NCBI GenBank assembly: GCA_025355465.1
Contig: JANXZO010000020.1
Coordinates: 1-64,000 of the forward strand
Direction of reading: 5' to 3'
DNA from: Bacteroidales bacterium
Lineage (GTDB): Bacteria > Bacteroidota > Bacteroidia > Bacteroidales > FEN-979
DNA: 64,000 nt
Every line of letters begins with the position of its first letter. The stretch's first letter is position 1. The notes beneath the pieces were generated by a model. The model had not been told where the DNA came from, ran no database searches, and worked only from the letters and a program-made list of their open reading frames with translations. Both the position numbers and the translations under genes were made by a program. Positions 9,134 through 26,936 of this stretch are shown piece after piece.

Positions 9134-9227
9134 GATTGATTGTTTTATTGATTAAAGAATAGGTGAATTAATTTTCCGGTCGGGATTCCTGAGAAGTTGG
9201 TCAAACAGGCTCCCGAAAAGGAGCGGT

Positions 9228-9563
9228 TCAGGGTCTGCGCTTTCTTACCAGGTATGATTCTGCGTCGGCTTTGATCTCTGAAATAGTCTTTTTTCTGCCG
9301 GACAAGATCCAGGCAACAAGTTCCTGTTTTGAGAAATAGAGACGTTTTCCCCGCTTGCAGACAGGAACTTCAGAGCGCTGAACCAGACCATAGACTGTCG
9401 GGACAGTGAGATGAATAATCTCGGCTGCCTCCCGGATGGTCAACAGTTTATCCTCTTCAGGCTCGGGAGTATTGTTTTGTGAGAGTAGAAGTCGTTCGAT
9501 ATTTTCGAGCTTCTCATAGAGCTGTGTAACAGCCTGCGGTAATTTTTCAAATGTGATTTCCAT
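9228..9563 (-). CDS. Excisionase-type helix-turn-helix protein
   Basis: A 111-residue DNA-binding protein. Residues 1-38 look like a coiled-coil lead-in (LYEKLENIERLLLSQN). A MerR/excisionase-type winged helix follows: LTIREAAEIIHLTVPTVYGL, then VPVCKRGKRLYFSKQELVAW, which is the HTH_17 pattern. Proteins of this type on Bacteroidota elements direct integrase towards excision or regulate mobilisation genes. It is upstream of the small basic gene and downstream of a palindromic intergenic region. Confidence 0.85.
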   Translation of the reverse strand: MEITFEKLPQAVTQLYEKLENIERLLLSQNNTPEPEEDKLLTIREAAEIIHLTVPTVYGLVQRSEVPVCKRGKRLYFSKQELVAWILSGRKKTISEIKADAESYLVRKRRP

Positions 9564-9615
9564 TGCTTACAAGATTTAAGTGAAACTTGCGGCAATGGTA
9601 CTTGCACCTTATGCA

Positions 9616-9653
9616 GGGTTACAATACGGTGGGTACCCACACGTGTAAAACCC
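9616..9653. promoter_or_regulatory. Extended dyad with a 12-bp palindrome
   Basis: GTGGGTACCCAC at 9629-9640 is a perfect 12-bp palindrome. It sits within a larger dyad: TTACA at 9619-9623 faces TGTAA to the right, and GGGTT faces AACCC outside that. It lies in the 100-bp gap upstream of the excisionase-like gene. It is a candidate operator for that protein, or a structured recombination or nick site. Confidence 0.5.
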
Positions 9654-9663
9654 GTATAAGATT

Positions 9664-10557: not shown

Positions 10558-10642
10558 TGGCTAATAATTATTTTGGTATTTTACTCATGATCATTTTCAT
10601 GATCATTGTCGGTCCATGATCTCATTCCTTTGGTCACGAGAA

Positions 10643-12325
10643 TTACATCATTCTTCCTGCCAGGAATAACCGGCCTAATTCAGTCAATTTATACTGCTGC
10701 TCAGGATCAGTGGGCTTATCTGGTTTTTTCATGCTGATCAGTCCAGCCTTCTGTAATGGAATCATATAGTTCTCCCTGAACGTTTGTCTTTTTTTATAAT
10801 TCAGCCAAGCCATCAACTGTTCAATTCCTGTTTCATTGCTGGTAAGAATAAGAATTGACAACAAATATCTTATCTTCTTATGAAGAAGGTTGGCACCTTT
10901 TTCAGACCAGCTTGGCACCTTTTCAATTTCTTCTTTCACAAATATTTGTTTATCAGGCCATTTCAATTCGTGAAGCTTGGCACCTTGCTGATGCCAGGTT
11001 GGCACCAGATGTAAAAGAAGATCTTCCCATCCTGCTTCAGCAATAGATGGATCCAAGGCAATATTCCTTAGTCCTTTTTCAAGAAGAGGGAAAACTTCAT
11101 CAGGGAGTTCAAGCCAATGTTTAAACTTAGAAGCGAATACATCCATTTGTAAAGAAACCAAAGGGATTTCCGTACGGAAAAGATCATCCTCTATAAACAA
11201 GGGTACTGCACCTGGAATATAAAACGATAAATATTTTCTAGTATTCCTCACCCCTGAACCAATCTCATCAGCCCAGCCCAAAGCCGTGAAAAATCTTCGA
11301 ATGTTTGGATTTTTTGGGTATGGATTGAACCGGTCAAGATTTAAAGGTCCGTGGAAAATAGGTCTGTTGGGGTTTGTAAGCACAACCGATTTTTTGTTGA
11401 TGATCAACTCAGAAGAATATCCATTTCTATATTCTCTATGAACGATGATATTTGCAATTACTTCCCGAAAAATCATACTGCGTAAATCCTTTCTTTGCTC
11501 GTCCTCCATATAGAATTTTTCCGGAAGGTGGCGTTGAATAAACTCCATGAGTTGCAAGTAGGTATCAATCAGATTTGTTCTGATGGTTATCCTGTCATCA
11601 TACCGATCAGGATTCGATATACGAACCATCGCTTCTACCTTATAGGCTGGAAGAATGCTCTGAATCGTGATGTCTTTCCCAAATATCAGCGCTGCGGCCA
11701 ACGTTAACCCTTGTTCACCGGTTTGAAAATCTGTCCGATATAACAATGAATCTGAAAGGATTTGATCATTAGAGGCCGAAACCCAGGGATGAGTTGACCG
11801 GAAACCACGGATGATCTGGCGTGATTTATCAAAAAGATTGATATTCAGGTCATCAAGGGAAAGATGTTTTATTATTTCCGCTTCGGTATAAAATTTTTCC
11901 TTTTTCTTATGAAGGTCTCCGATTGCATTCCGGTTGTTTGTAATATCAATGTCAGCATCTCCTTGTCTTAAAAATATTTTGCCGCCATGATCATGAATCT
12001 GAGAACTGGCTGAGATCTGTAAAATTAAAATTTGTCCGGCTACATGTCTAAACCTGAATACCGGTTGCAGAAACGTGGGATTTATACAATCCCGGTTATT
12101 CATTGATGTAGTAATATTAGTCAAGTACTCTTCGAGCTGCTTGTCATTCAGTCCCAAAACATTTCCTTCATCATTTACACCTAGGAGAATTGTACCTCCA
12201 TCAGTATTGGCAAAACTGACGATAGTTTCATAGAGACTTGCAGGCACATTGTCCTGAGCTTCTTTGAATTCAATTATTGTCCCTTCTTTCTGAGCAAGAA
12301 TTTTGTCAACATCTTCATTTGTCAT
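10643..12325 (-). CDS. AlbA_2 (schlafen-like) domain ATP-binding regulator
   Basis: A 560-residue protein. The N-terminal AlbA_2 DNA-binding domain (residues about 12-130) has GTIIEFKEAQ and VSFANTDGGTILLGVNDEGN. A middle GHKL-like ATPase region has FREVIANIIVHREYRNGYSS and the glycine-rich WADEIGSGVRNTRKYL. The C-terminus is a winged-helix-like tail. Such proteins are annotated as putative transcriptional regulators or RecG-like; some act in phage defence, but that is not shown here. It ends within a few bases of the integrase gene (7-bp gap) and is likely co-transcribed with it. Confidence 0.85.
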   Translation of the reverse strand: MTNEDVDKILAQKEGTIIEFKEAQDNVPASLYETIVSFANTDGGTILLGVNDEGNVLGLNDKQLEEYLTNITTSMNNRDCINPTFLQPVFRFRHVAGQILILQISASSQIHDHGGKIFLRQGDADIDITNNRNAIGDLHKKKEKFYTEAEIIKHLSLDDLNINLFDKSRQIIRGFRSTHPWVSASNDQILSDSLLYRTDFQTGEQGLTLAAALIFGKDITIQSILPAYKVEAMVRISNPDRYDDRITIRTNLIDTYLQLMEFIQRHLPEKFYMEDEQRKDLRSMIFREVIANIIVHREYRNGYSSELIINKKSVVLTNPNRPIFHGPLNLDRFNPYPKNPNIRRFFTALGWADEIGSGVRNTRKYLSFYIPGAVPLFIEDDLFRTEIPLVSLQMDVFASKFKHWLELPDEVFPLLEKGLRNIALDPSIAEAGWEDLLLHLVPTWHQQGAKLHELKWPDKQIFVKEEIEKVPSWSEKGANLLHKKIRYLLSILILTSNETGIEQLMAWLNYKKRQTFRENYMIPLQKAGLISMKKPDKPTDPEQQYKLTELGRLFLAGRMM

Positions 12326-12332
12326 GGTGGCA

Positions 12333-13682
12333 TCAATTATTATTAAGCGTTGTAATAGCTGGTTTTTCCTTATTTATAGATTCCGTTGGACGGGTGAAGG
12401 TCATGAGGTTTTTCATAAACTCTTTTTTGTCCTTATCCTCAAATCCCGCGAAATAACTTTGAGTGGTTCTCAGGTTTGTGTGACTTAAGGATTCGCTGAC
12501 GAATTCCATCGTTGCTCCGTTACGAATAGCATTCGTGGCAAAGCTGTGGCGTGCCCAGTATGAGGAAATCTTTCCGGTGATCCCATTGTTTTTTGCCAGG
12601 TTTTTCAGATTTTGATTTACAAATCTGGTAAAGTTTTTTGTCATCATGAACTTTGATTCTTCATCCTGGTCGTCAGAAACAATTGGGAAGATCAACTTTT
12701 TCGGTCCCCTGTCCTTGTTGCCGTATTTATCAATGACATATTTCACATGATCAGTAATGTAAGCCGTTACGGGTTTTAAATGGGTCTTGCCGGTATTGAT
12801 CGTCTTGGCACGGTAAAAGATCAATGTGTCTTCCTGGAGATTTTCCCAGCGAAGCATTGCAATATCCTTTAAATTCATTCCATTGCAGGCATACGAGAAG
12901 AACCAGAAATCCCTGGCCTTTTCCTGTTCCGGGATCCTTGGGGTAGCAAAGAAGAGTATATTTAGCTGGTCACCAGTCAAGGCCTTTTTTACTCCCTGGA
13001 CTGCCGGAAGCTGGTACTTGTTTTTCCCAAAGGGATATATCTCCGGGTCGATGTCTTTTTCTGCAATAGCATTATTGAAGATGGTCCTCAATACCCTGAG
13101 ATAGATTGAAATTGTGGTTCGGGATAAAGGGCATTCCCTTAACTCATGCGACCGTTTCAGAGGTTTTTTCCGGTGTAGCATGGCAAACTCATATTTAGTA
13201 AGCCATGCAGGAGTAATTTCAGAGAAAAACATTTTGGTCGGCTTATGACCGGTGAGACTTTCCATGTAATCTTCGATCGACTTCTTACTCAAACTATAGT
13301 TGTATGCATTTGCAAACTGGTTGTTGGCTTTAAGTTTAATGATCGCCTGATCATAATGATATAAAAAGTTCTGCGTGTCACCTTTTTTTCTGAGGTACTT
13401 TCTTTCGAACTGTTCGAAAGAAAAGGGAGTGATCTTTCCGGCGATCTCATTCAGCAAAGAATCAAAAGCCTGCAATTTCTGTCTTTCTTCGTGGTAATTC
13501 TTATGAGCCTTTTCAGCTTTCCAGGCCTTCTTAAAATCATCTTCCGAATACTCAAATTTCGTCGGATAAAGTCTTGCGATTTTGGTCAGTGTGTGATAAA
13601 CACGTATTTTTACCGGATATTTATGGTTGCTTTTTTTCCTTCGGGCATCGAGAAATAACGATATGATAAATTCCTTTTCCAT
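12333..13682 (-). CDS. Tyrosine-type site-specific integrase
   Basis: A 449-residue integrase with an N-terminal arm-binding region (residues 1-95), a SAM-like core-binding domain (about 110-215) and a C-terminal catalytic domain (about 235-420). Visible catalytic elements: the ARHSFAT box, LSHTNLRTTQSYF with the His and the nucleophilic Tyr, and a basic beta-hairpin region around FYRAKTINTGKTHLKP. The box I arginine position reads CNGMNLKDI, so Asn seems to replace Arg, as I recall in a Bacteroidota subfamily. It sits 181 bp from the tRNA attachment site, as expected for the gene that catalyses integration there. Confidence 0.92.
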   Translation of the reverse strand: MEKEFIISLFLDARRKKSNHKYPVKIRVYHTLTKIARLYPTKFEYSEDDFKKAWKAEKAHKNYHEERQKLQAFDSLLNEIAGKITPFSFEQFERKYLRKKGDTQNFLYHYDQAIIKLKANNQFANAYNYSLSKKSIEDYMESLTGHKPTKMFFSEITPAWLTKYEFAMLHRKKPLKRSHELRECPLSRTTISIYLRVLRTIFNNAIAEKDIDPEIYPFGKNKYQLPAVQGVKKALTGDQLNILFFATPRIPEQEKARDFWFFSYACNGMNLKDIAMLRWENLQEDTLIFYRAKTINTGKTHLKPVTAYITDHVKYVIDKYGNKDRGPKKLIFPIVSDDQDEESKFMMTKNFTRFVNQNLKNLAKNNGITGKISSYWARHSFATNAIRNGATMEFVSESLSHTNLRTTQSYFAGFEDKDKKEFMKNLMTFTRPTESINKEKPAITTLNNN

Positions 13683-14102: not shown

Positions 14103-14333
14103 ATGAAAAAAGTTACCATCGTATTAGCGCTTGCCTTTGTAGCTATCGGCTTGTCGCTCGGATCATGCAAAAAGTGCTCAACCTGCTCCTTTACCTATAT
14201 GGAAGGTGGTCAGCAATTTTCCTATACCTACCCGGAGCAGTGCGGTAAGACATCTGACATAGATGCTTACAAAACAGGTTGTGCTACTGCTGCTGCATTG
14301 GTTGGCTCAACCTGCAGTTGTACCAGCAAATGA
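14103..14333 (+). CDS. Small cysteine-rich lipoprotein
   Basis: A 76-residue lipoprotein: signal peptide with lipobox LSLGSCKK (Cys about 22), then a short mature part with seven further cysteines (KCSTCSF, EQCGK, GCATA, STCSCTSK). The cysteines probably form disulfides in the periplasm or on the surface. Its stop codon overlaps the next start (ATGA), so the two are translationally coupled. It is the first chromosomal gene after the tRNA junction. Family unknown to me. Confidence 0.7.
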   Translation: MKKVTIVLALAFVAIGLSLGSCKKCSTCSFTYMEGGQQFSYTYPEQCGKTSDIDAYKTGCATAAALVGSTCSCTSK

Positions 14334-14815
14334 GAGGATTTTTCATTGCTGTTTTTTCATTGCTGTTGATATTTGCAAGTTGCACGCATACAACACCATG
14401 TGAAAAGGAAATATACCTGGTTCCCAAAGGTTTTCATGGAAAGATAATGATCTTTTTTGATCAGACAGATGGTCAGGAAAAATCTTATGAGGGAACGGCA
14501 AGATTGTATACAGTACCGCCTGGAGGCTTGATGAAATCTCAGTTTCCGAAAAATGGTGGTTGCATGAACGACAATCGGCTGAAGTTTTTCTATGCTGACA
14601 GTCTTGGGAACCGGGTACCCTTCCTTTATTTTCTTGATATGCAGGGTAAAACAATTCCTGCGGATAGTACGTATATCGTTTTTTCCCTTTTGTCGAACAA
14701 GGGAAGCAGAAATCCATTCGTAATTCACCTCATCGGGAATGCACTCGAATTTGCCGAACTCACCCGGGAGGTCAAAAGGCATAAGCCCGAAGAGATATTG
14801 AATTCACTGAAGTAA
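14330..14815 (+). CDS. Lipoprotein resembling DUF6843
   Basis: A 161-residue lipoprotein. I start at the ATG at 14330, which overlaps the preceding stop as ATGA and gives a proper signal peptide (MRGFFIAVFSLLLIFASCTH, lipobox Cys about 18). The longer upstream frame lacks one. The motif EIYLVPKGFHGKIMIFFDQ followed by EGTARLYTVPPGG is the pattern I associate with DUF6843-like lipoproteins. Role unknown; presumably outer-membrane or periplasmic. Confidence 0.7.
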   Translation: MRGFFIAVFSLLLIFASCTHTTPCEKEIYLVPKGFHGKIMIFFDQTDGQEKSYEGTARLYTVPPGGLMKSQFPKNGGCMNDNRLKFFYADSLGNRVPFLYFLDMQGKTIPADSTYIVFSLLSNKGSRNPFVIHLIGNALEFAELTREVKRHKPEEILNSLK

Positions 14816-15466: not shown

Positions 15467-15483
15467 AGTGTAAACAGTGTAAA
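15467..15483. promoter_or_regulatory. Tandem AGTGTAAA boxes upstream of the response regulator
   Basis: AGTGTAAAC (15467-15475) is directly followed by AGTGTAAAA (15476-15484). The same 8-mer forms the inverted repeat at 26904-26936 upstream of the peptide operon. It may be a binding site of the adjacent sigma-54 regulator, giving autoregulation of the divergent genes. Confidence 0.5.
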
Positions 15484-15551
15484 AAATATTGACATGTAGT
15501 GTTGGATTAGTTGACATATTGTATAAATTAGCTGTCCAAATAACTTACAGC

Positions 15552-16925
15552 ATGTTGAAAAAAGGTAACCTGCTCATTGTTGAGGATAATCCGGAGATCC
15601 TCGAGGCATTAGAATTTTTTCTTGAGGATGAATTCAACCTGGTAACCGGATTAAAAAATCCTAACCTGCTGCCTTCCACCCTTCAGTCGGCCGCTTACGA
15701 TATTGTGCTGCTGGATATGAACTTTACCGCTGGAATAAATACCGGGAATGAAGGACTATATTGGCTGTCGGAGGTGATTAATTATGATCCCACCCTGTGT
15801 GTTATTATGATGACTGCCTATGGAGATATCGATCTGGCAGTTAGGGCGGTAAAAAACGGTGCCACTGATTTTGTTCAAAAGCCATGGGACAATGACAGGC
15901 TTCTTGCCACATTGAAGGCTGGTTTGAAAGTTCGCCAATCGAGCATTGATTACAAGAAGAACCATATCAATCACGAACAACTTAATGCGGATCTTGAACA
16001 ACAATTTCCAGAATTTATCGGGGAATGTCCGTCGATTAAACGGATCATGGATATTGTTGACAAGGTATCGCGTACAGATGCCAATATCCTGATCACAGGC
16101 GAGAATGGGACAGGCAAGGGGTTGATCGCAAAGGAGATACATCGCAGATCAGACAGGTCATCCCAGGTAATGGTTACGGTCGACATGTCATCCATCCCGG
16201 TTTCACTTTTTGAGAGCGAGTTGTTTGGACACAAAAAAGGAGCCTTTACGGATGCAAAGCAGGACCGGATCGGGCGTTTTGAGTCGGCGAGCAAAAGTAC
16301 CCTGTTCCTTGATGAGATCGGCAACCTCTCGCTGAACATGCAAACCAAAATACTTAATGTTCTTCAAGAAAGACAGATCGTACCCTTGGGTTCGAATAAA
16401 GTTGTCCCGATCAATGTGCGGCTCATCTGTGCTACTAATAAAAATCTGGAAAGAATGGTGATGGAAGGCTTGTTCCGCCAGGATCTTCTTTTCCGTATCA
16501 ACACCATTCAGGTTGACCTTCCTCCCTTGCGTGAGCGCGGAAACGACATCGATCTGATGGCCGGATTTTTCCTTGACAAATTTTCAGTGAAATATGAAAA
16601 GGGCCAGATGGCATTCAGTAAAGAGGCCATTATTGCGTTAAAATCCTACCCGTGGCCAGGCAATATCCGCGAATTGGAGCACGCCATCGAAAAGGCTGTA
16701 ATACTGGCTGAAGGTGTGATTGTAAAGGTGGATGACCTGTTCCTGAAAAAACTCCCAAATATGAATCCAACAGTTCCGGATTCGCCGGTATCTTTTGATG
16801 ATTACGAGAAGGATATTATCCGAAAATCACTGTTGCGTAACATGGGAAATCTTGCCAGTGCATCACGCGAACTTGGTATTTCGCGGCAGACCATCTACAA
16901 TAAGATGAAAAAATATGGTCTCTAA
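15552..16925 (+). CDS. Sigma-54-dependent response regulator (NtrC family)
   Basis: A 457-residue regulator, start taken at MLKKGNLLIVEDN. The receiver domain (residues 6-120) has the acidic pair ED, phospho-acceptor Asp55 in LLDMNF, Thr in MMTAYG and Lys in VQKPWD. The AAA+ sigma-54 domain has Walker A GENGTGKG, the sigma-contact loop as GAFTDA (usual GAFTGA), Walker B LFLDEIGN and arginine finger LPPLRER. The Fis-type HTH is at the C-terminus (ASRELGISRQTIYNKMKK). It overlaps the kinase gene by 11 bp. A sigma-54 promoter sits before the peptide precursor in the same locus, making that operon the likely target. Confidence 0.93.
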   Translation: MLKKGNLLIVEDNPEILEALEFFLEDEFNLVTGLKNPNLLPSTLQSAAYDIVLLDMNFTAGINTGNEGLYWLSEVINYDPTLCVIMMTAYGDIDLAVRAVKNGATDFVQKPWDNDRLLATLKAGLKVRQSSIDYKKNHINHEQLNADLEQQFPEFIGECPSIKRIMDIVDKVSRTDANILITGENGTGKGLIAKEIHRRSDRSSQVMVTVDMSSIPVSLFESELFGHKKGAFTDAKQDRIGRFESASKSTLFLDEIGNLSLNMQTKILNVLQERQIVPLGSNKVVPINVRLICATNKNLERMVMEGLFRQDLLFRINTIQVDLPPLRERGNDIDLMAGFFLDKFSVKYEKGQMAFSKEAIIALKSYPWPGNIRELEHAIEKAVILAEGVIVKVDDLFLKKLPNMNPTVPDSPVSFDDYEKDIIRKSLLRNMGNLASASRELGISRQTIYNKMKKYGL

Positions 16926-18267
16926 GAGATACTATTATGTTGTTATATTGCGTATCTTGCTAATTGTCATAACCTTAGGCTGTTTTTTTTTCGCTTCCTT
17001 TTACTACCGTAATATTTCAATTCTCGCCATTTTCGCTCTCCTTTCCATTGTGGAGGTAGCCGGATTGGTCGATTACCTGAACAGAATCAATGAGAAACTC
17101 GAAAATTTTTTCATTGCCCATCTGAGTGGCGAGATGACGACCTCCTTCTCAAAGTCTGGCAGGAATGACGAATTCGAAGGTCTTTACAGCTACTTCATCA
17201 GGATCAATACCAAACTTGAAAAGGCCCGTGTTGAAAACGAGGTTCGTAACAACTATTTCAAAACCCTCGTCGACCATGCTGCCGTTGGATTAATATCATT
17301 TACGGAAGACGGCAATGTTGGGTTTTTTAATGACGCTGCAAAAAAAATATTCCGGGTGCAAATTGTCAGGAATCTCGAAAAACTAAACCAGTTCAGAGAG
17401 GGAATGAGCCATTTTCTCGTTCAACTTGAGCCCCATAACATGGAACTGATGAATATTATCATCAATGGGGAACTCATCCAGTTAGCTACGCGCAAAGTGA
17501 CATTCACCGCGGAAGGCAACACGGTACACCTGGTCTCTCTCCAGAATATCAAATCCGAACTCGAACAAAAGGAGGTTGAATCGTGGCAGAAGCTCATCCG
17601 CGTCCTTACCCATGAGATTATGAATTCGATCACCCCGATCACATCGCTGGCTTCCAGCCTCACGCGACTTTTTCAGAATAAGGATTCGAAGGAGGTAAAG
17701 AAAATTGAGGAGGTGACTTCACAAACCCTTGAAAAGACGGTAAAGGGGCTCAATATCATTGCAGGCAGAGGCGAAGGGCTGGTTCAATTTGTTCAGAATT
17801 ACCGGGATGTGACCCGGTTGCCAAAACCACAATTTCATGGAGTCTCGGTAAAGGATCTTCTATTGGTTGTACAGGGTCTGTTTGAGGAGCAACTTGCCAC
17901 GAGTAATATCCGTATGGAAGTAGTTTGCCATCCCTCTTTGTTTATTCAGGCTGATGGTATGCTTTTGCAACAGGTACTTATAAACCTTGTTAAGAATGCA
18001 ATCGAGGCATTTGGCGAAAAACCTGATCCTCTTATCCGACTCTCAGCTCAGACCTTAGCCGACCATACTGTGATAGAAATAATGGACAACGGCAACGGTA
18101 TCCCGCTCGTGGCCATGGAGAACATCTTCGTGCCGTTTTTTACCACGAAAGAGAAGGGATCAGGGATCGGACTGAGTCTGTCGCGTCAGATTATCAGGAT
18201 GCATGGTGGAAGTCTTGATGTACAATCCATCCCGGGCTCCCATACAATTTTTACCATCAAAATCTGA
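16915..18267 (+). CDS. Membrane sensor histidine kinase (NtrY-like)
   Basis: A 450-residue kinase with two N-terminal membrane segments (about residues 5-28 and 32-52) separated by only a few residues, so it has almost no periplasmic sensor. A PAS-like domain follows (about 115-175), then the phospho-acceptor His in LTHEIMNSITP, the N box VLINLVKNAIEAF, and G boxes DNGNGIP and GSGIGLSLS. It should phosphorylate the regulator encoded by the overlapping upstream gene. The signal is probably sensed in the membrane or cytoplasm. It converges on the ABC ATPase gene with a 4-bp gap. Confidence 0.92.
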   Translation: MVSKRYYYVVILRILLIVITLGCFFFASFYYRNISILAIFALLSIVEVAGLVDYLNRINEKLENFFIAHLSGEMTTSFSKSGRNDEFEGLYSYFIRINTKLEKARVENEVRNNYFKTLVDHAAVGLISFTEDGNVGFFNDAAKKIFRVQIVRNLEKLNQFREGMSHFLVQLEPHNMELMNIIINGELIQLATRKVTFTAEGNTVHLVSLQNIKSELEQKEVESWQKLIRVLTHEIMNSITPITSLASSLTRLFQNKDSKEVKKIEEVTSQTLEKTVKGLNIIAGRGEGLVQFVQNYRDVTRLPKPQFHGVSVKDLLLVVQGLFEEQLATSNIRMEVVCHPSLFIQADGMLLQQVLINLVKNAIEAFGEKPDPLIRLSAQTLADHTVIEIMDNGNGIPLVAMENIFVPFFTTKEKGSGIGLSLSRQIIRMHGGSLDVQSIPGSHTIFTIKI

Positions 18268-18271
18268 TCGG

Positions 18272-18943
18272 TTACCTTCTCTCGGTTACAATTTGCCCGT
18301 CGAACAGGTTAACTAACCGGCTGGCGAATTCGGAATCACGCTGAGAATGGGTTACCATAATGATGGTTGCACCTCCTTCGTTAAGCTCGCTAAGTAAATT
18401 CATCACCTCTTCACCACGCGCGGAGTCGAGGTTCCCTGTAGGTTCATCGGCCAGGATCAGCGAGGGCATCGGCACAATGGCCCGTGCTATTGCAACACGC
18501 TGCTGCTGACCGCCCGACAGTTGCACAGGAAAATGATTTCTCCGTGCGATCATTTCGAGTCGTTCAAGTAAGGTTGTTACTCTGGCTTTTCGTTCTCTGG
18601 ATACTATCCCGAGGTACATCAGTGGCAGTTCCACATTTTCGAACACAGTGAGTTCCTCGATCAAGTTGAAATTTTGAAAAATAAACCCTATCTTCTCCTT
18701 TCTCAACCGTGCACGCTTCTTTTCTGTATACTTTGAGACCTCCTCTCCCCGAAAGATAAATTCCCCCGAAGTCGGACTGTCAAGCAGTCCAAGGATATTC
18801 AGCAGTGTGGATTTTCCGCAGCCCGACGGACCCATAATGGCTACGAATTCACCTTCATTCACATGGAAGCTAACATCCTTCAGTGCAATGGTCTCAATTT
18901 CATCGGATTTAAAAATCCTTGTCAGTCCTTTGGTGTGAATCAT
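18272..18943 (-). CDS. ABC transporter ATP-binding protein (MacB/LolD type)
   Basis: A 223-residue ATPase: Walker [13 protein letters not shown], signature [15 protein letters not shown], Walker [13 protein letters not shown], and the H-loop in VTHSQRD. The start at 18943 ([11 protein letters not shown]) is favoured because it overlaps the stop of the 54-residue gene as ATGA; a longer frame adds 23 poor residues. It is the natural partner of the FtsX-type permease encoded at 21300-23684 in the same operon. Together they may export or give immunity to the modified peptide (inference). Confidence 0.92.
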
Positions 18944-19104
18944 TTTGTAATAAACTTTGATAAGGCAAAGATCCCAATGATCGTTAAAGTAAAAATGGCC
19001 ATAATTATCCACATTCCATGTCGGATTATCCAGGCAGGCTCCTTATCTAGAATCTCACGGATCTCCTTGCTGTACTCTTTGTCAACTCTTTCGCTAGTCT
19101 TCAT
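18940..19104 (-). CDS. 54-residue membrane microprotein, HlyD N-terminus-like stub
   Basis: ATG at 19104 to TGA at 18940. Residues YSKEIREILDKEPAWIIRHG, followed by one hydrophobic helix (about 31-50), match the N-terminal cytoplasmic tail and membrane anchor typical of Bacteroidota HlyD-type adaptors that work with C39 exporters (pattern EIxEIL..P.WIIR.G). The periplasmic domain of about 350 residues is missing. The frame is tightly fitted: 3 bp after the exporter gene, and ATGA overlap with the ATPase gene. This suggests a maintained gene rather than debris, perhaps a small anchor or regulator of the exporter. Confidence 0.7.
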   Translation of the reverse strand: MKTSERVDKEYSKEIREILDKEPAWIIRHGMWIIMAIFTLTIIGIFALSKFITK

Positions 19105-19107
19105 CAC

Positions 19108-21300
19108 TCAACCCAGTTCAAGCTGGTTTTTAACCAGATTATAATAAGCCCCCTTTGCAGCAGTCAGCGTTTTGTGGTTGCCGCGTTCTATTATCGACCC
19201 TTTTTCCAGCACAACGATCTGATCGGCATTACGAACCGTACTCAGCCTGTGTGCAACAATTACGACTGTTTTACCCCGGAAAAAAGAATTCAGGTTCTCA
19301 ATGATCTGTCGTTCGTTAAGGGCATCCAGTGAATTGGTCGCTTCGTCAAAAAAGATGTACTCCGGATTGCGATATACAGCCCGGGCGATAAGGATCCGTT
19401 GTTTCTGTCCCATGCTGATGCCGGTGCCATCCTGTCCAATCTTGGTGGCTGTCCCCAGTGGCAGGGTCTCAATAAAATCTGTCAGGTTGGCCATTATTAT
19501 GGCATGGGCCAGTTTTTCCACATCTGGTTCATCATCCCCCATCGCAATATTTCGGACAATAGTATCTGAAAAAATAAATCCTTCCTGCATAACGGCGCCG
19601 CAACGACTTCTCCAAAAGCTTGAACTTAACTTTTCCAGGGGCGTATCTCCCACTAACACAGAACCCTTCACAGGATGGTAAAATCCAAGCAGCATCTTTA
19701 TCAGGGTAGTTTTACCGCTCCCGCTGGAACCCACGATAGCTGTTATTTTTTGTGCCGGGATCTCCAGGTCCAACTCACGGAGTACAAATGGTGAATGCGG
19801 CCCTTCATATTGAAAATCGACATTGTTCACATAAATATCTCTTTCCGCAGGTAGTTCACGCAGTGCCGGCTGTTGGGGATTTTCTTCCTCCGGATGGGCG
19901 TTGATCTCTTCGAGCCGCTCCATGCTTATCCCTGCATCCTGGGCCTCCCGCATAAAGTTAACCATCTGTTCCACAGGGTTGCTCAGTTGTCCGATAATGA
20001 ACTGCACAGCCAGCATCATCCCCAGAGTCAATTCTCCTTTAATCACCAGGTAGGCAGATAGAAATGTGATCAGGATGTCTTTGGTCCGGATGAAAAAGAA
20101 AGCCCCAACACTCTGATATTGTGTAAGAGAAAGACTTTTAAGACTCAATTTGAACAGTTTAGCCTGGATGCGTTCCCATTCCCATCTCTTTTGCTTTTCG
20201 CAATTCTGTAATTTTATCTCCTGCATACCGGTAATCAGCTGGAAGAGGGCACTTTGATTTTCCGATAAGCGGGAAAATCTGAGATAATCGATCTCTTTCC
20301 GTCTCTTCATGAAGAGGTAAACCCATGCGGCATAGAGGAAACTCCCGGTCAGAAAAACGAGAAAGATCATAGTACTGTAAAACAACAGGACGATCCCAAA
20401 AAGAATAAACGTGACTGTTGAAAAGATAATATTCAGGGAACTGACTGCCAGAAAGGATTGAATCCGGTTATGGTCGGTGATCCTCTGCATAAGGTCACCG
20501 ATCATTTTTGAATCGAAAAATCCGATCGGAAGCTTCATGATTTTTATCAGGAAATCGGAGATGAGGGCAATATTGATGCGGGTACTGATGTGGAGCAGAA
20601 CCCACCCGCGAATGAATTCAACAAGTGTAAGTCCAAGGAAGAGCGATAGCTGGGCTAACAACACCAGCGAAATGAAGCTGAGATTCTGATTGCGGATACC
20701 CTTGTCAACGATGGCCTGGGTTAAGAACGGAAAGGCAAGCTGTATAAAACTTCCGAACACCATGCCCAGCAAAAGCTGAAGCATGTATTTTCGATGCGGG
20801 TGAAGGTAGGAGAGGAGGAACCCGAAACGCGATCCGGCAGGTTGATCACCATCACGCAGATGAAATTCCGGCAATGGTTCCATCACCAGACAGACTCCGC
20901 ACGATGTTGACTCTTCCGTGGATAGCCACGATTTGCTGAATTCATCCACCGTAAGTTTGATGCGGCCGTGCGCCGGATCTGCAACATAGAGGAGGGTTTC
21001 ATTTCCGTTTTGCCTGACATCATAAACCACGATAAAATGGTTCTGGCTCCAGTAGGCAATACAGGGGAGTGGAGTTTCATGAAGAAGTTGTTCCATGGTA
21101 ATTTTTACCCCCAATGTGCGGAATCCCAGGTCTTCGGCTGCATCGCTGATCCCCAGCAACGATACTCCGTCCCGGGTGATATGACATTTTTCCCGCAAGG
21201 TTGAAAGCCGGTATACTTTGCCATAATGCCGGGCAATCATTTTAAGGCATGCAGGACCGCAGTCCATTGAATCGTACTGATGATAGAATTGAAATTTCAT
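19108..21300 (-). CDS. C39-peptidase bacteriocin-type ABC exporter (PCAT)
   Basis: A 730-residue exporter that cuts double-glycine leaders and exports the peptide. The N-terminal C39 peptidase has Gln8, Cys14 (MDCGPACLK), His88 (QNHFIVVYD) and Asp108 (VADPAHG). Six membrane helices lie at about 165-440. The ATPase has Walker A GSSGSGKTTL, Walker B YIFFDEATNSLD and a variant signature ISMGQKQR. The precursor in this operon has the matching Gly-Gly leader. It shares one base (TAATG) with the upstream permease gene. Confidence 0.93.
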   Translation of the reverse strand: MKFQFYHQYDSMDCGPACLKMIARHYGKVYRLSTLREKCHITRDGVSLLGISDAAEDLGFRTLGVKITMEQLLHETPLPCIAYWSQNHFIVVYDVRQNGNETLLYVADPAHGRIKLTVDEFSKSWLSTEESTSCGVCLVMEPLPEFHLRDGDQPAGSRFGFLLSYLHPHRKYMLQLLLGMVFGSFIQLAFPFLTQAIVDKGIRNQNLSFISLVLLAQLSLFLGLTLVEFIRGWVLLHISTRINIALISDFLIKIMKLPIGFFDSKMIGDLMQRITDHNRIQSFLAVSSLNIIFSTVTFILFGIVLLFYSTMIFLVFLTGSFLYAAWVYLFMKRRKEIDYLRFSRLSENQSALFQLITGMQEIKLQNCEKQKRWEWERIQAKLFKLSLKSLSLTQYQSVGAFFFIRTKDILITFLSAYLVIKGELTLGMMLAVQFIIGQLSNPVEQMVNFMREAQDAGISMERLEEINAHPEEENPQQPALRELPAERDIYVNNVDFQYEGPHSPFVLRELDLEIPAQKITAIVGSSGSGKTTLIKMLLGFYHPVKGSVLVGDTPLEKLSSSFWRSRCGAVMQEGFIFSDTIVRNIAMGDDEPDVEKLAHAIIMANLTDFIETLPLGTATKIGQDGTGISMGQKQRILIARAVYRNPEYIFFDEATNSLDALNERQIIENLNSFFRGKTVVIVAHRLSTVRNADQIVVLEKGSIIERGNHKTLTAAKGAYYNLVKNQLELG

Positions 21301-23684
21301 TATTCGTATTTCAGTGCGTTTATCGGATTTTCCCTGATTAATCGCATTGTTCTATACAACAGGATCATGGAGACAAATCCTGCGATCGTTAATACAGAAA
21401 TGGCAAATGTAAACCAATGCAGGGTTACCCGGTAATAAAATTCACTCAGCCAGAGACTCATCATATACCATGAGAAAGGGATTGCAATAAGTGCTGCGAT
21501 CCCGATGTAGATAAAAAATTCTTTTTGCATCTGGAAGATAATATCCGGATTGGATGCGCCAAAAATCTTTCGTATGGACATCTCCTTCATCCTGCGCTCT
21601 GAAAGAAGCATCGCAAGTCCGAACAAACCCATGCCTGTGATCAAAAATGCCAGAATGGTGAATGACCCCACCACCCGGGCAAAATTTCTCTCGGATTTGT
21701 AAATATCGCTCAGTTGACGGTCGTAAAATGTGTACTGGAATTGCTGGTCAGGCGCCAGATTTTGCCAGGCAGTTCTGGCTAAAGTGAGAACCTTGTCCTG
21801 GTTGACATAATTATACCGCAGTATCAGTGTCTGGCATCCTTCGGGATTCAGCAACAGCAGGGAGGGGGGGATCCTGGAATGGAGCGTGTGCAGGTTGAAA
21901 TCGCGGGAGACTCCTTTTATTTTAAATTTCCCGATAGAACCACCGATCGGTTGTTTTAGCCTGATCGCTTTCTCCGCCTGTTCATTAATATATGTAACAC
22001 GTATTCCCTCCTGTTTTTCCCTTCTGGACAACTCCTTGCCCTTAACCATAGGGATGTTGAGCGTTTTGAAAAAATCGTAATCAACAGAGGCAATTTCAAA
22101 CTCAACATCCTGGGTAACGGCGCCCGGTAGTTTCATTTTTCGTAACACCGCAGCCGTGGAGGGGGGACTCAGGGATGAACCCGTGAGAGAGAGCACTTCA
22201 GGATGAATCCTGACAGCTTTTTTCAGCTCCTCATACTTCTTAAATTCTGATTGGTTGAAATTGATTAACAGAAGATTCTCCTTGTCACTTGTGTCGTTTT
22301 GAGAAAGGCAGTAGTTAATTTGACGATATACATTGATCAGACCTATCATCAGGACAAGAGTGACAAATAATTGAAAAATTATAAATAATTTGCTGAGACT
22401 GAATTTCTTATAAGAAAAAAACTTCGATTTTAAGGCATCCATCGGGTTCATTGAGGCCAGGAAAAATGCTACATAGGCACCTGAAAAGAAGCCAATTACC
22501 AGTGTAATTCCGGAGAAAACAACGAGATAATAAGGCAAATTTGCAGTATACATGCGGATTTCCTGCCCGAAATAGGGTTCAATGAGCGGAAGGATAAGTC
22601 CAAGAAGGATCATTGATAAGGGAAAGGCGATGAAAGTAAGCAATACTGATTCCGTAAGGATTTGCGATCTGAGATCGGATCGCGTAGCCCCCATCACTTT
22701 CCTCACGCCAATCTCTTTGAAACGAAGAGCTGACCGGGCTGTACTTAGGATAGAATAATTGACACCGGCCAGGAAAAGTATAAATAATGCCAATGATACA
22801 TAGATATATAGATCCTGTTTCTTGCCTTTTCTGACCGCATCGTTTTGAATCTGATCAGAATGAAAATATATATCTCTGATGTTCTGAAAGGAGTATGTGA
22901 TGTGTTGCTTGCGAATTTCAGGCATGGAATTAAGTGCAACCGTTTGTCGCAAAAGGTCACGGTAATTCGTTTCCTGTTTGGTTCTTACATAAATATCCGC
23001 ATAACCATTAGTTAATGAGGTCATTACGTCTTTGTCTGAATATTCATTGTCTTTTAGAATCTTCCGAAAGAGAGCGAGACTTCCGATAATATCAGCAGTG
23101 AATGTTGAATTCCAGGGAAAGTTTCTGTAAACAGCCTCCACTGTAAGGGGATATACGATACCGTTTGTTTTTAATCTGAGTTTTTTACCCACTGCATCGC
23201 CAGAACCGAAATATTTTCGCGCAGTCTTTTCAGATAAGATAATTTTGGAAGAATCGGAGAGAATAGCGCGTGGATCACCTGCAATTATTTGAACTGCAAG
23301 AATGTCAAGCAGGTCGGTATTGGCGCAAATAATGTCTGGCTCTGCTGTAAAAACTACAGATTTACTGACAGTGGCAATTCTCCAAAAATTGCTGAACCGG
23401 ATTGCAATGCCAGCCTTTTCAATCGACCTGATTTTGTCTTTGCATAATTCTGCCAGTGCAATCGGAGCGATTACCTCAGTAAACTGCTTTTTTTTATCCG
23501 TTGAAAGTAACCGGTAGGTCCTGATTGACTCAGGTATGGCGTGGTCGAAAGTGAGTTGGTTAATGGCGGCGATGAGGAGAATAAATGCTGCAGATAGTCC
23601 TAAAACCAGTCCCGACAAGTTGATCATAGTATAGGTTTTGCTTTTACGCAAGAACCTGTATGAGGTGATCAGGTGGTTGAGCAT
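21300..23684 (-). CDS. FtsX/MacB-like ABC transporter permease
   Basis: A 794-residue permease in two halves, each with a periplasmic MacB-type domain and an FtsX membrane domain. The N-terminal helix is at about 20-42, FtsX triplets at about 290-400 and 680-790, and an extra helix lies near 435. Family hallmarks are FKEIGVRKVMGATRSDL and MKEMSIRKIFGASNPDI. It lacks an ATPase and should pair with the ATP-binding protein at 18272-18943. In peptide loci such permeases often give immunity or efflux; that role is inferred here. Confidence 0.9.
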   Translation of the reverse strand: MLNHLITSYRFLRKSKTYTMINLSGLVLGLSAAFILLIAAINQLTFDHAIPESIRTYRLLSTDKKKQFTEVIAPIALAELCKDKIRSIEKAGIAIRFSNFWRIATVSKSVVFTAEPDIICANTDLLDILAVQIIAGDPRAILSDSSKIILSEKTARKYFGSGDAVGKKLRLKTNGIVYPLTVEAVYRNFPWNSTFTADIIGSLALFRKILKDNEYSDKDVMTSLTNGYADIYVRTKQETNYRDLLRQTVALNSMPEIRKQHITYSFQNIRDIYFHSDQIQNDAVRKGKKQDLYIYVSLALFILFLAGVNYSILSTARSALRFKEIGVRKVMGATRSDLRSQILTESVLLTFIAFPLSMILLGLILPLIEPYFGQEIRMYTANLPYYLVVFSGITLVIGFFSGAYVAFFLASMNPMDALKSKFFSYKKFSLSKLFIIFQLFVTLVLMIGLINVYRQINYCLSQNDTSDKENLLLINFNQSEFKKYEELKKAVRIHPEVLSLTGSSLSPPSTAAVLRKMKLPGAVTQDVEFEIASVDYDFFKTLNIPMVKGKELSRREKQEGIRVTYINEQAEKAIRLKQPIGGSIGKFKIKGVSRDFNLHTLHSRIPPSLLLLNPEGCQTLILRYNYVNQDKVLTLARTAWQNLAPDQQFQYTFYDRQLSDIYKSERNFARVVGSFTILAFLITGMGLFGLAMLLSERRMKEMSIRKIFGASNPDIIFQMQKEFFIYIGIAALIAIPFSWYMMSLWLSEFYYRVTLHWFTFAISVLTIAGFVSMILLYRTMRLIRENPINALKYE

Positions 23685-23689
23685 TTCCG

Positions 23690-24955
23690 TTATTGTTCCT
23701 CTTTATAAATGTGACAGAAATTGTATCTTTTCATGAAAATTTCGTAACGGCTGACAGGGGGACATAGAAAATTATAGACACATGAACTACATGGGGAAAC
23801 ACGTTGACGTGTTCTTTCCCAGCTTTTTCCGGTGTTCATTTCCGCTTCTATCATTTCGATGACACCCATCCGGCTAAGGTTACCAAGTGCCGGATCGTTT
23901 ACATTCGCAAAGATAGTTCCATCCGGCATAATGGTGAACTTGCCGAAATCATTTTCATTGAAAGTTATGCGTGAAAAGATCTGTTTCTGATCAGGTTTTG
24001 AACCGGCAATATCATTTGTGGTGATGTAAACATTTTCTTTAAAGAAACCCAGATTTGTTCCATTAAAATAGGGTTTAAAGAACCAGTTCCGGAGGTTAAA
24101 ATGGGCAATCAGTTGCTGGGCCTTTTCAAGATCGGCCATGTCGCTGATAATAAATGTATACTCGACCTTTGTGTTTTTCTTTGCACGACCCTCGACCTTC
24201 TCCATTGTATTCAGGTTTTCCATGTAAAATGGGAAGGAGACGAAAATCGCTGTGGAAGAATTCTTTCCAAAATTATCGAAGTTGATTTGATCTGCCTGAG
24301 GTAGGGAGAGGTGATATTTTACATGGAACTTTGTGGTATTCAGGTACAATACGAGTTCGTCCCAGTCCTGCCATCCCGCGGGATCCGACGAGCATATGTT
24401 AATGGCCAGGGCAGAGACAACGGTGAGTTCTGATAGCAGGCGCTTTACCATCAAAAGGTCCATATTTTTACCATATAGTTCATCTCCAAAGGGAAACGGG
24501 AATTGAAAAAATGCTGTCGGAAAATCCAGGGTAAGCGGTGATTTGCCGGCATTGAGATGAAATGTTATTTCGTGCAGGAAGTTTTCAGGTTTCAGACCTG
24601 ATCTTTCCAAACCTTCCTCATAGGGTTTCAGACGCTGTTTAAATGCAGGCTGCGGTACAAGGCTAACTGGCTTGATCTGTGAAAGGGCGACCGGCAGCAG
24701 GTCGCCCATATGCAGCTTGCGAAGCTGCGCAATGAATTTCATGACCACCGGATTGTCGGTTTCGCCTTTGCTGATCCTGATAACATTGCCATTGGAAACC
24801 TCCAGTAGTTTCCTTACGATGGTCGAAACAACTCCTGACTGATTGTATTCAAGGATCTTGCGATTGAGTGTATTGTAAAATAGCGCATGACCGTTTTGTT
24901 CGGTAAGGTGAACAAATGGCTCAAGGCATAGCCAGTAGTCCGGATCACTTTTCAT
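23690..24955 (-). CDS. Pseudo-radical-SAM protein, GG-Bacteroidales system
   Basis: A 421-residue protein recognised as the partner family of the GG-Bacteroidales peptide system (TIGR04150-like). It resembles a radical SAM/SPASM enzyme in size and layout but lacks the CxxxCxxC cluster motif. The C-terminal SPASM-like cysteines persist: SPCSSCVYNFLCPP and a further Cys in YNFCHIYKE, so an auxiliary FeS cluster may remain. It probably binds substrate or scaffolds the true maturase. Its start overlaps the maturase stop by 11 bp, so the two are made together. Confidence 0.88.
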   Translation of the reverse strand: MKSDPDYWLCLEPFVHLTEQNGHALFYNTLNRKILEYNQSGVVSTIVRKLLEVSNGNVIRISKGETDNPVVMKFIAQLRKLHMGDLLPVALSQIKPVSLVPQPAFKQRLKPYEEGLERSGLKPENFLHEITFHLNAGKSPLTLDFPTAFFQFPFPFGDELYGKNMDLLMVKRLLSELTVVSALAINICSSDPAGWQDWDELVLYLNTTKFHVKYHLSLPQADQINFDNFGKNSSTAIFVSFPFYMENLNTMEKVEGRAKKNTKVEYTFIISDMADLEKAQQLIAHFNLRNWFFKPYFNGTNLGFFKENVYITTNDIAGSKPDQKQIFSRITFNENDFGKFTIMPDGTIFANVNDPALGNLSRMGVIEMIEAEMNTGKSWERTRQRVSPCSSCVYNFLCPPVSRYEIFMKRYNFCHIYKEEQ

Positions 24956-26456
24956 GAAATGCCTCCTTCACAATTCGCTGAAAGAACGGATAGTCCTGTT
25001 CAATCAAACCAAACGTTCGCGATAGTTCCCGGCTGAACTTTTTTTCGTCTGTGAAGAATTCGCATTCTGGGTAATCCGTATCGACTCTTGTGTTAAAAAC
25101 ACACTCCTTGCAATGGTCGGCGATGAGACAATTACGGCATAGCGTCTTAATTTTATCAAAAAACCCATTGTACATATCAGCGATTTCCTCAGGGGTGATA
25201 ATAATGTTATTGTCATCAAATTTTCCGATCTCAAACACGCGGCTGATGTGTTCACACGGCAAAATACTACCGTCCGCTGTTAGAAAAACACGCATGGAAA
25301 ACGGCATGCATGTTGCGGTCGGCACAAATTGTTTATTTGCCTTACCATTTGATTTTGAGGAAATAACATGGTAGTAATTCTTAAACACAAATCCAGAATA
25401 TTTCTCAACGACATCAGCGATTTCCTTTACACCCGGATGGTTCAGCGACATTGCCTGCATAACTACACTGTCGGATGAATCTGTTCGTCTCTTTTCCAGA
25501 AAGGTTGAATGAAATTCATCTTTGAACTCCTCATTGATATTCAACGTGCTGATGGAGGATATCAGTGGTACTTTATTGTAACGTTCTTTAAAGTAGGAAT
25601 AAACCGAGCCCAGGGAGTTTTGGTTGTGAAGTACAGTAAGAAAAGAGATGTTTTTGTCAAAGTAGTCCGGGTACTTTGCTTTTACAGTGTCAATATTTTT
25701 AACAACAAGATCATACGAAGAGGAATTGTTCTTCAGCACGCGAAAACTGTTGCCCTGGCTATCACCATCCAGACTGATGGAGACCTCCATTTTATGTTCG
25801 GCAAGAAATCCGGCATGTTTTGCTAGCAACAAGCCATTGCTGGACATGGTATATTTGAACCGGAGGTGCTGGTATGCCGAAGAGTTACAAAATTCAACGA
25901 TCTGGCGGATGAATTTAAAGTTCTTCAGTGGCTCTCCGCCATAGAAGCTGATAATCAACTCGGTAGCTGTTGTCCTTTTTGACAGGATCAAGGCGAGCAT
26001 TCGCCTGGCGTGGTCGAAATTAAACTCCCGTTTTCCCCGCTCCTTGTTAATGTAAAATTTGCTGAATGTGCAGTATACACAGTCAAGGTTGCAATCTTCT
26101 GTTGTTTCAAAAATTACCTGCTTGATCTTACTCAGATTCTCATTGATTTTGAGTGCGGTGAGTTTTCCCTCCAGGTTAAGGGAGTCTGCATTTCTGAAAT
26201 AGTTATGTTTTTTTAGAAAACGATACCGTGCCAGCTGGGCTCTGGCCTCGTTTGAAGGGTAACGTACTGAATTTATGATGGTAACTGATTTCCCCGTAGT
26301 AGTATGTGACTTGAGAAACTCTTCAAGATTTGTACCTTCTGAATCTTCGTTGTAAAGGATGGGAATTACAGGATGACAAAGTAGTATCTGGTTGCGGAAT
26401 GGACTATATAAATAGACGTTGCCTTTGCTGGTCGAGAAGGTTACGGTTTTTTTCAT
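24945..26456 (-). CDS. Radical SAM/SPASM peptide maturase, GG-Bacteroidales family
   Basis: A 503-residue enzyme (TIGR04148-like). Start taken at MKKTVTFSTSKG (26456), since the longer frame adds an odd MPWMWTC. The N-terminal about 110 residues may be a leader-recognition (RRE-like) region. The radical SAM motif CNLDCVYC holds the 4Fe-4S cluster that cleaves S-adenosylmethionine, followed by FYGGEPL and SLDGDS. The C-terminal SPASM domain has CMPFSMRVFLTADGSILPC and CRNCLIADHCKEC for auxiliary clusters. It should modify the neighbouring precursor, possibly at its CxC motifs. Confidence 0.92.
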   Translation of the reverse strand: MKKTVTFSTSKGNVYLYSPFRNQILLCHPVIPILYNEDSEGTNLEEFLKSHTTTGKSVTIINSVRYPSNEARAQLARYRFLKKHNYFRNADSLNLEGKLTALKINENLSKIKQVIFETTEDCNLDCVYCTFSKFYINKERGKREFNFDHARRMLALILSKRTTATELIISFYGGEPLKNFKFIRQIVEFCNSSAYQHLRFKYTMSSNGLLLAKHAGFLAEHKMEVSISLDGDSQGNSFRVLKNNSSSYDLVVKNIDTVKAKYPDYFDKNISFLTVLHNQNSLGSVYSYFKERYNKVPLISSISTLNINEEFKDEFHSTFLEKRRTDSSDSVVMQAMSLNHPGVKEIADVVEKYSGFVFKNYYHVISSKSNGKANKQFVPTATCMPFSMRVFLTADGSILPCEHISRVFEIGKFDDNNIIITPEEIADMYNGFFDKIKTLCRNCLIADHCKECVFNTRVDTDYPECEFFTDEKKFSRELSRTFGLIEQDYPFFQRIVKEAFHEK

Positions 26457-26495
26457 GCATGTCCACATCCATGGCATTCCGCCAGGAATCTATGG

Positions 26496-26503
26496 CAAAG
26501 GTA
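26496..26503 (-). promoter_or_regulatory. Possible internal housekeeping promoter before the maturase
   Basis: Minus-strand TACCTTTG (TAnnTTTG class), about 40 bases upstream of the maturase start, in the 82-bp gap after the precursor. No good -33 TTTG is seen. It could give basal expression of the maturation and export genes apart from the sigma-54 promoter. Confidence 0.4.
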
Positions 26504-26538
26504 CTTTTTTATTGGTTGGGAATAAAAGGCAGTGTGTT

Positions 26539-26754
26539 CTACCTTTCACTGGGTTTGGTCTGAACCGAGGCGCTTGAGGTTGAAGAGTCACCACAAACAC
26601 AAAGGTCACCGGCGGGGCCGCCAGACTGGCGAGTACTAACCATTGGATTATTAGCTGAACAGATGCATCTGACATCGGCACCACCCTTGATCTGGGCTAA
26701 CATGTTCTTCTTGATTTCGGCTTTGTAAAGGTTGACCAGGCTTAAGGTTTTCAT
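26539..26754 (-). CDS. RiPP precursor peptide, GG-Bacteroidales family
   Basis: A 71-residue precursor (TIGR04149-like). The leader MKTLSLVNLYKAEIKKNMLA ends in QIKGG (Gly24-Gly25), the cut site for the C39 exporter. The 46-residue core carries two CxC motifs, RCIC and LCVC, separated by 20 residues containing RQSGGPAGD. Its tail is rich in Ser/Thr. I chose the ATG at 26754 because it gives the family leader; an upstream in-frame ATG adds 19 residues and lies upstream of the predicted sigma-54 start site. The Cys residues are candidates for thioether or other radical modification. Target and activity of the product are unknown. Confidence 0.9.
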   Translation of the reverse strand: MKTLSLVNLYKAEIKKNMLAQIKGGADVRCICSANNPMVSTRQSGGPAGDLCVCGDSSTSSASVQTKPSER

Positions 26755-26805
26755 GACTGTGGTTTTTATTTTTGAGTTTTGATTATCAGTTTTATGGATT
26801 GGGTA

Positions 26806-26822
26806 TTGCAAATGCCGTGCCG
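26806..26822 (-). promoter_or_regulatory. Sigma-54 promoter of the peptide operon
   Basis: Read on the minus strand: CGGCACGGCATTTGCAA. The -24 GG (26821-26820) and -12 GC (26809-26808) are exactly 10 bases apart, and GGCAC-N5-TTGCA fits the consensus. Transcription would start near 26797, leaving a leader of about 43 bases before the precursor start. Confidence 0.8.
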
Positions 26823-26903
26823 TAAAATTAAATTACATTAAATCAACAAGATAGCACAATAATGCCAATATTTATTATTAAAAAGATGTAAAAGAATTTG
26901 ACA

Positions 26904-26936
26904 AAAGTGTAAACATTATTAAAATATTTACACTTT
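26904..26936. promoter_or_regulatory. Inverted repeat, candidate enhancer for the sigma-54 regulator
   Basis: AAAGTGTAAA (26904-26913) and TTTACACTTT (26927-26936) form a perfect 10-bp inverted repeat with a 13-base spacer. It is about 107-139 bases upstream of the predicted start site, the usual distance for NtrC-type enhancers. The half-site is shared with 15467-15483. Confidence 0.65.

Follow-up and report, generated by a model that had tools for sequence, protein, structure and literature searches.

Introduction

The closest described relatives of the locus analyzed here are peptide cassettes of the Bacteroidales, in which a precursor with a Gly-Gly (GG) leader is encoded beside a radical S-adenosylmethionine (SAM) maturase and a pseudo-radical-SAM protein. 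The locus lies in a stretch of 64,000 nucleotides from a Bacteroidales bacterium (positions 1-64,000 of contig JANXZO010000020.1, assembly GCA_025355465.1; hereafter the window), whose draft genome comprises 3.54 Mb in 75 contigs. A cluster of this kind was described in 2015 from Bacteroides uniformis ATCC 8492, where the genes for precursor, maturase and pseudo-enzyme are accompanied by an exporter and a hemolysin-secretion protein (PMC4573289). This "GG samocin" cassette (TIGR04149/TIGR04148/TIGR04150) and the window locus have in common the GG-leader precursor, the maturase, the pseudo-radical-SAM protein and a bacteriocin-type ATP-binding cassette (ABC) exporter. As described, the B. uniformis cluster includes the hemolysin-secretion protein, and no mention is made of a two-component system or a MacB-type pair (PMC4573289). 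The window locus has both of these and lacks a full-length HlyD.

Two other systems share parts of this layout. The darobactin locus darABCDE, as outlined in its report, also combines a radical SAM ribosomally synthesized and post-translationally modified peptide (RiPP) with an ABC transporter, but it has the adaptor DarC, which has no counterpart in the window operon (PMC9055067). Membership of the darobactin type was rejected, with the window ATPase scoring 269 bits against DarD (cut-off 375) and the permease 72.5 bits against DarB (cut-off 700). To our knowledge, the darobactin locus has neither a GG leader nor a C39 exporter. In the account given of BceAB-BceRS, an adaptor-free FtsX/MacB-type permease and ATPase are partnered with a kinase, and protection against peptides is ascribed to MacB homologues, BceAB among them (PMC5985334). 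The window locus encodes the same combination of parts. The window differs in its NtrC-type regulator and sigma-54 promoter. BceRS has an OmpR-type regulator and depends on sigma-70.

According to a survey of 1,136 Bacteroidales genomes, radical SAM clusters are common, and selected ones contain pseudo-radical-SAM proteins, exporters, adaptors, kinases or regulators (PMC10352776). Among the open-licence PMC papers listed, judged by title and abstract opening, no report was found of a product of a TIGR04148/TIGR04150 cassette or of a sigma-54-controlled cassette of the window's kind. An earlier note on this DNA had proposed a candidate undescribed peptide system. That description is too broad for the trio and its exporter, known since 2015 from the published cluster (PMC4573289), but it suits the variant, which looks new in three respects: its own sigma-54 two-component control, a MacB-type pair within the operon and the lack of a full HlyD. 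From comparison with related loci, we read it as a vertically inherited RiPP operon with its own sigma-54 two-component switch, peptide crosslinking, and two-step handling of the peptide by the C39 exporter and the MacB-type pair, and we give this reading a probability of roughly 0.52.

Locus organization and conservation

The minus strand from 26754 to 18272 carries a single tight operon. The precursor gene is followed by those for the maturase, the pseudo-radical-SAM protein, the permease, the C39 exporter, an HlyD-like stub and the ABC ATPase, and the successive junctions are a gap of 82 bp (taking the maturase start at 26456), an overlap of 11, a gap of 5, an overlap of 1, a gap of 3 and an overlap of 4 bp. 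The regulator and kinase genes on the plus strand (15552-18267) converge on the 3′ end of the operon. Every part listed in the earlier note was thus present with an open frame, and the comparison of gene order in relatives that it had suggested showed the same order recurring across the family loci. As far as the contigs extend, loci L035-L047 and L190 read BatA, precursor, maturase, pseudo-enzyme, permease, exporter, ATPase, kinase, regulator. Precursors are present in these loci and in the window, 15 family loci in all, and the same BatA gene adjoins the precursor in 14 of them (L036 has no BatA nearby).

The maturase was found in 16 of 43 genomes of the GTDB family, in four of its eight genera (E <= 1e-40), and a TIGR04148 match above the cut-off in 21 of 393 genomes sampled across the order. 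The regulators of the 15 loci form one clade (support 100/99). Genera g5 and g8 are recovered by both the maturase and the BatA trees, and g3 by the maturase tree alone. A regulator of at least 68% identity occurs in 17 genomes, and only in G021, on a 4.7-kb contig, was it without cassette genes. In that genome (L198, G021:C61:1-4692) the regulator lies 1.5 kb from a BatA gene cut by the contig end, with no kinase or cassette match, and it is the sole orthologue where the FT.A motif pattern was not found; G021 has the look of a lost cassette. G013 was rejected as a cassette-free regulator genome, its contig ending inside C39. Gene order, trees and G021 therefore fit one gain, vertical descent and losses.

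Proposed sigma-54 control of the operon

The regulator consists of a receiver domain (PF00072), a sigma-54 AAA+ domain (PF00158, 211.6 bits) and a Fis-type helix-turn-helix (PF02954). In sigma-54 activators the GAFTGA loop contacts sigma-54, and the window regulator bears GAFTDA at this place. G[AT]FTDA was found in 14 of 15 regulator orthologues and G[AS]FTDA in all five paralogues examined from a RiPP-free module described below; one of five own-genome paralogues also has GAFTDA. An rpoN gene is encoded in the same genome (389.7 bits). The kinase has two membrane helices, a PAS-like region, an H-box and an ATPase domain. Its inter-helix loop is only a few residues long, and a periplasmic domain is absent in 14 of 14 aligned orthologues (hydropathy was computed for the window protein). 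Kinases that sense through a partner transporter, BceAB for example, are known to have such a two-helix, short-loop layout.

In 14 of 15 loci the precursor ATG is preceded, at a distance of 47-56 bp, by a −24/−12 element with GG-N10-GC, and L035 has GG-N10-GT. In 13 of the 15 loci none of 500 letter-shuffled upstream regions matched the observed sigma-54 score (L038, 2/500; L035, 3/500). The count of sigma-54-type sites within the window at one mismatch, two found against 0.83 expected, is not decisive by itself; the window site becomes decisive because it is conserved in relatives. For the regulator gene, a sigma-54 promoter was rejected, no convincing site having been found in the 15 loci, so feedback there must work otherwise.

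Copies of the palindrome GTGTMAAANNNTTTKACAC, often spaced 21 bp, are located 5′ of the −24/−12 element. At two or fewer mismatches, the 15 stretches of 320 bp preceding precursor genes contained 26 sites (14/15 loci), and the 15 stretches of 200 bp preceding regulator genes contained 24 (12/15 loci). Specificity was assessed on the rest of the loci and on whole genomes. The other 342,475 bp of these loci's sequences, window included, held no site at this threshold and four at three mismatches. In eight whole genomes, one mismatch or fewer gave 25 sites, 22 of them at precursor or regulator promoters, and the reversed control pattern gave three in all. Three sites of the relatives lie outside the locus (G027:C34:33545, G061:C9:5042 and G061:C169:161542). 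The window's own genome had no site at one mismatch or fewer and six at two or fewer, including one at each of the two promoters; within the window, two were found against 0.12 expected.

The promoter comparison and the rpoN gene together strongly support the predicted regulator control of the operon through sigma-54, which the earlier note had put forward. A survey of Bacteroidia reports COG0577 permeases (ABC-type antimicrobial peptide transport) as enriched under predicted sigma-54 promoters (PMC12316311).

Precursor, maturase and pseudo-enzyme

The window precursor has a 25-aa leader ending in GG and a core, ADVRCICS...LCVC..., that bears CIC and CVC. The GG and the two CxC motifs are kept in 17 of 17 precursors read (L037 and L042 have two precursors each), and K or R precedes the first CxC. 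For core codons (residues 26-50), dN/dS was 0.03-0.54 in 17 of 36 pairs and the remaining 19 were saturated; L040, of different length, was excluded. By this codon comparison, purifying selection acts on the peptide core in the judgeable pairs, and a conserved target or receptor is therefore probable.

The assignment to the known cassette families, also made in the earlier note, held for both enzymes and fell short for the precursor. The maturase scored 373.3 bits (373-374) against NCBIfam TIGR04148 (curated cut-off 300) and its partner 307.6 bits against TIGR04150 (curated cut-off 250), but the precursor reached 19.3-19.6 bits against TIGR04149, below the curated cut-off of 25, as did five precursors of relatives (12.7-20.2 bits). 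With a GG leader and a place beside TIGR04148 and TIGR04150 genes, it nevertheless looks like a precursor of a radical SAM-modified RiPP. The maturase frame can open at 26477, and the start at 26456 agrees with the relatives. Its CxxxCxxC motif reads CNLDCVYC at residue 122, and the SPASM cysteines are C383, C401, C440, C443, C449, C452 and C465.

"Pseudo" in a pseudo-radical-SAM protein means that the CxxxCxxC of the SAM cluster is missing. The window protein lacks it, as do all 14 family members when the aligned segment is inspected by eye, and all of these retain the C-terminal cysteines. In the outgroup, 11 of 14 TIGR04150 proteins keep CxxxCxxC at the SAM-cluster position (alignment A2), e.g. 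L054:3458-4663 and L063:11224-12474, and the five such proteins that were scored (L054, L056, L059, L063 and L069) all exceed the pseudo_rSAM cut-off. The name "pseudo" therefore suits the window's family and may mislead for many other members. An AlphaFold model of the window protein (predicted local distance difference test, pLDDT, 86.6) had its best matches among solved structures to SuiB (VIA-align Z 16.6, root-mean-square deviation 3.5, 277 residues), CteB (Z 15.6) and related radical SAM enzymes; a SuiB/CteB-like fold is thus predicted. No specific function has been experimentally assigned to pseudo-radical-SAM proteins according to the Bacteroidales survey (PMC10352776).

Export genes and the HlyD adaptor

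The C39 exporter contains PF03412 (Peptidase_C39, 122 bits), PF00664 (ABC membrane) and PF00005 (ABC ATPase) domains, and the permease matches FtsX and MacB_PCD. The stub ORF between exporter and ATPase has no Pfam match. A full HlyD was not found beside the C39 exporter of the window locus, and unlinked HlyD, MacA or TolC genes were not searched for in the genome. Between the operon genes there is neither a match to, nor room for, a periplasmic adaptor and an outer-membrane channel.

Across the family, full-length HlyD was absent from all 15 loci (four genera) in which the interval between C39 exporter and ATPase is visible. Nine have no gene there (16-23 bp), five a protein of 165-180 aa, and the window its 54-aa stub. 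The proteins of 165-180 aa, from genus g5, align with the N-terminal helix and the C-terminal domain of HlyD and have no hairpin. The outgroup test covered 43 stretches, among which 19 TIGR04148 loci had sequence visible past the C39 exporter; stretches without the C39 end in view, L057 and L068 (C39 reaches the contig end), and L215 and L226 (the same records as L063 and L067) were left out of the count. Full-length HlyD was found in 14 of the 19 (L049, L051, L058, L062, L063, L066, L067, L212, L214, L216-L219 and L229). HlyD aligned over 325 residues in L050 and is 323 aa long in L069, where about 8 kb separate the C39 and HlyD genes from the maturase gene. C39 is followed by a short HlyD-like protein (162-165 aa) in L070 (~15500-16080, minus strand), L104 (14679-15167) and L220 (14555-15052). 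Where a C39 ABC exporter is present, a total lack of an adaptor gene was seen in the window's family only.

Locus L225, from another family, encodes the maturase, the pseudo-enzyme and a C39-VKOR fusion, and then a permease and an ATPase of the window's kind; fusion, permease and ATPase together span 8386-13440, and no other ABC transporter was matched on the 13.6-kb contig. Judged by gene content, L225 is another export arrangement for the window's peptide family.

Relation to a MacAB-TolC-type module

A RiPP-free module with regulator, kinase, ATPase and permeases occurs elsewhere in the GTDB family (L199-L205 and L210), and no RiPP genes were matched at these loci. Compared with the window, its regulator is 45-52% identical, its kinase 33-35%, its ATPase 61-69% and its best permease 26-29%. 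By these identities, the two-component system and ABC pair of the window are kin of a MacAB-TolC-type module. The module has an outer-membrane efflux protein and a DarC/RND-like adaptor (L200, by Pfam and NCBIfam), whereas the window operon has neither. Several modules have a sigma-54-like site before the ATPase gene when read by eye, which passes a strict threshold in L210 only, and their dyad, TGTWCA-N4-GTTWACA in five of six modules scanned, differs from that of the window.

Proposed mechanism and alternatives

In the proposed mechanism, the kinase, almost without an extra-membrane part, would respond to the condition of the membrane or of the MacB-type pair. The phosphorylated regulator would bind the palindromes and open the sigma-54 promoter. 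The maturase may then crosslink the core at both CxC motifs, with the pseudo-enzyme helping as a leader-binding or scaffolding partner. The C39 exporter would cleave after GG and release the peptide into the periplasm, because the operon does not encode a complete connection to an outer-membrane channel. From there, the MacB-type pair would pass the peptide onward, or would lift it from the membrane and so protect the producer.

Several observations weigh against this reading. The MacB-type pair does not strictly accompany a shortened or absent HlyD, and such a rule was rejected: in L070, L104 and L220 an HlyD-like protein is short although the permease has no match there. A short adaptor is thus untied to the pair and may function as such, which slightly lowers our confidence in the reading. 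Short forms recur outside the family, and the g5 protein may therefore be functional as a short adaptor and not a relic. The structure model of the short HlyD was poor (pLDDT 48.8, confident in the membrane helix only) and was not used. On the regulatory side, the palindrome was initially picked out by eye from these very promoters, so that its enrichment there is partly circular and its rarity elsewhere is the only independent result. The sites in the window's own genome are weak (two mismatches), and the reversed control gave nine sites genome-wide against six. L036 has no palindrome at two or fewer mismatches at either promoter, and L198 and L208 have none at the regulator. In the ATPase tree, a single supported clade for the copies of the RiPP loci was absent and was rejected.

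An ordinary bacteriocin locus would secrete its peptide in one step through an outer-membrane channel and an HlyD that is either shortened or encoded elsewhere, leaving the MacB-type pair for immunity only. One-step secretion is the common way in the outgroup, where 14 of 19 loci have a full HlyD past C39 and three more a short one, and a guarding role would agree with what is reported of MacB homologues such as BceAB (PMC5985334). We consider this explanation somewhat unlikely in view of the 15 family loci, all without full HlyD and nine without any adaptor gene at that place, and of a core under purifying selection in the judgeable pairs. Moreover, the locus keeps to a single site and tracks genera. 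Such behavior is unusual for a bacteriocin. The conserved core would also suit a signaling or envelope-maintenance peptide, whose mature form is sensed by the kinase and the MacB-type pair in a feedback loop on the operon. In the relatives, regulator sites stand almost only at the regulator's own two promoters, and the kinase without a periplasmic domain (14/14 aligned) shares its locus with an FtsX-type pair, as described for BceAB and BceS (PMC5985334). However, no receptor was identified and a closed regulon equally suits a toxin with its immunity, so we regard a signaling role as rather unlikely. More speculatively, the locus could be a Gram-negative sigma-54 counterpart of BceAB-BceRS for a self-made radical SAM peptide. 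The C39 exporter would bring the peptide into the periplasm, the adaptor-less pair would handle it there and signal to the loop-less kinase, and the regulator would act chiefly on its own two promoters; HlyD would be mostly lost in the family, and the 54-aa remnant in the window's genome may have been retained as a small ABC-transporter subunit. This version is doubtful and is offered tentatively.

The existence of the RiPP-free paralogous module raises the question of whether two-component system and MacB-type pair form an efflux unit of their own, next to the RiPP cassette only by position. This is very improbable: the permease gene lies inside the operon, between the pseudo-enzyme (5-bp gap) and the C39 exporter (1-bp overlap), the precursor and regulator promoters have the same palindromes, and only one of 17 regulator-bearing genomes (G021) shows no cassette genes. 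The genomes are drafts, and the stub and missing adaptor might be assembly or frameshift artefacts, but a full HlyD is lacking in 15 of 15 loci of four genera and the stub ORF shares 4 bp with the start of the ATPase gene, which makes artefacts most improbable.

The locus matters since a single type of precursor, with a single regulator, DNA site and promoter, is conserved over four genera, which makes the variant a sharp handle on an uncharacterized peptide family. Signal, crosslinks and peptide fate can therefore each be tested by a defined deletion or by co-expression. The missing full HlyD and a MacB-type pair inside the operon that is related to an efflux module also point to a natural rewiring of Gram-negative peptide export.

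Feature coordinates and neighboring genes

Table 1. Features of the RiPP locus, in window positions.
Feature	Position	Strand	Remark
Precursor peptide, 71 aa	26539..26754	−	GG leader
Sigma-54 −24/−12 promoter, CGGCACGGCATTTGCA	26807..26822	−	52 bp 5′ of precursor ATG
Putative regulator-binding palindrome	26886..26904		Precursor promoter; 2 mismatches to GTGTMAAANNNTTTKACAC
Second dyad, GTGTAAA-N13-TTTACAC	26907..26933		Widely spaced, adjoining the palindrome; read by eye
Radical SAM/SPASM maturase, TIGR04148 (RSAM)	24945..26456	−	
Pseudo-radical-SAM partner, TIGR04150 (PSEUDO)	23690..24955	−	
MacB/FtsX-type ABC permease (PERM), 794 aa	21300..23684	−	
C39 peptidase-containing ABC exporter, 730 aa	19108..21300	−	
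HlyD-like stub, 54 aa	18940..19104	−	Resembles adaptor N-terminus and membrane helix only
LolD/MacB-type ABC ATPase, 223 aa	18272..18943	−	
Histidine kinase	16915..18267	+	
Sigma-54 response regulator, NtrC-type	15552..16925	+	
Putative regulator-binding palindrome	15477..15495		Regulator's own promoter

Slightly to the left of the regulator, a tyrosine recombinase (12333-13682) and a Schlafen AlbA_2/Fic-like protein (10643-12325) are encoded on the minus strand and may belong to a mobile element. A gene for a DUF6843 protein (14279-14815, plus strand) lies 5′ of the regulator.

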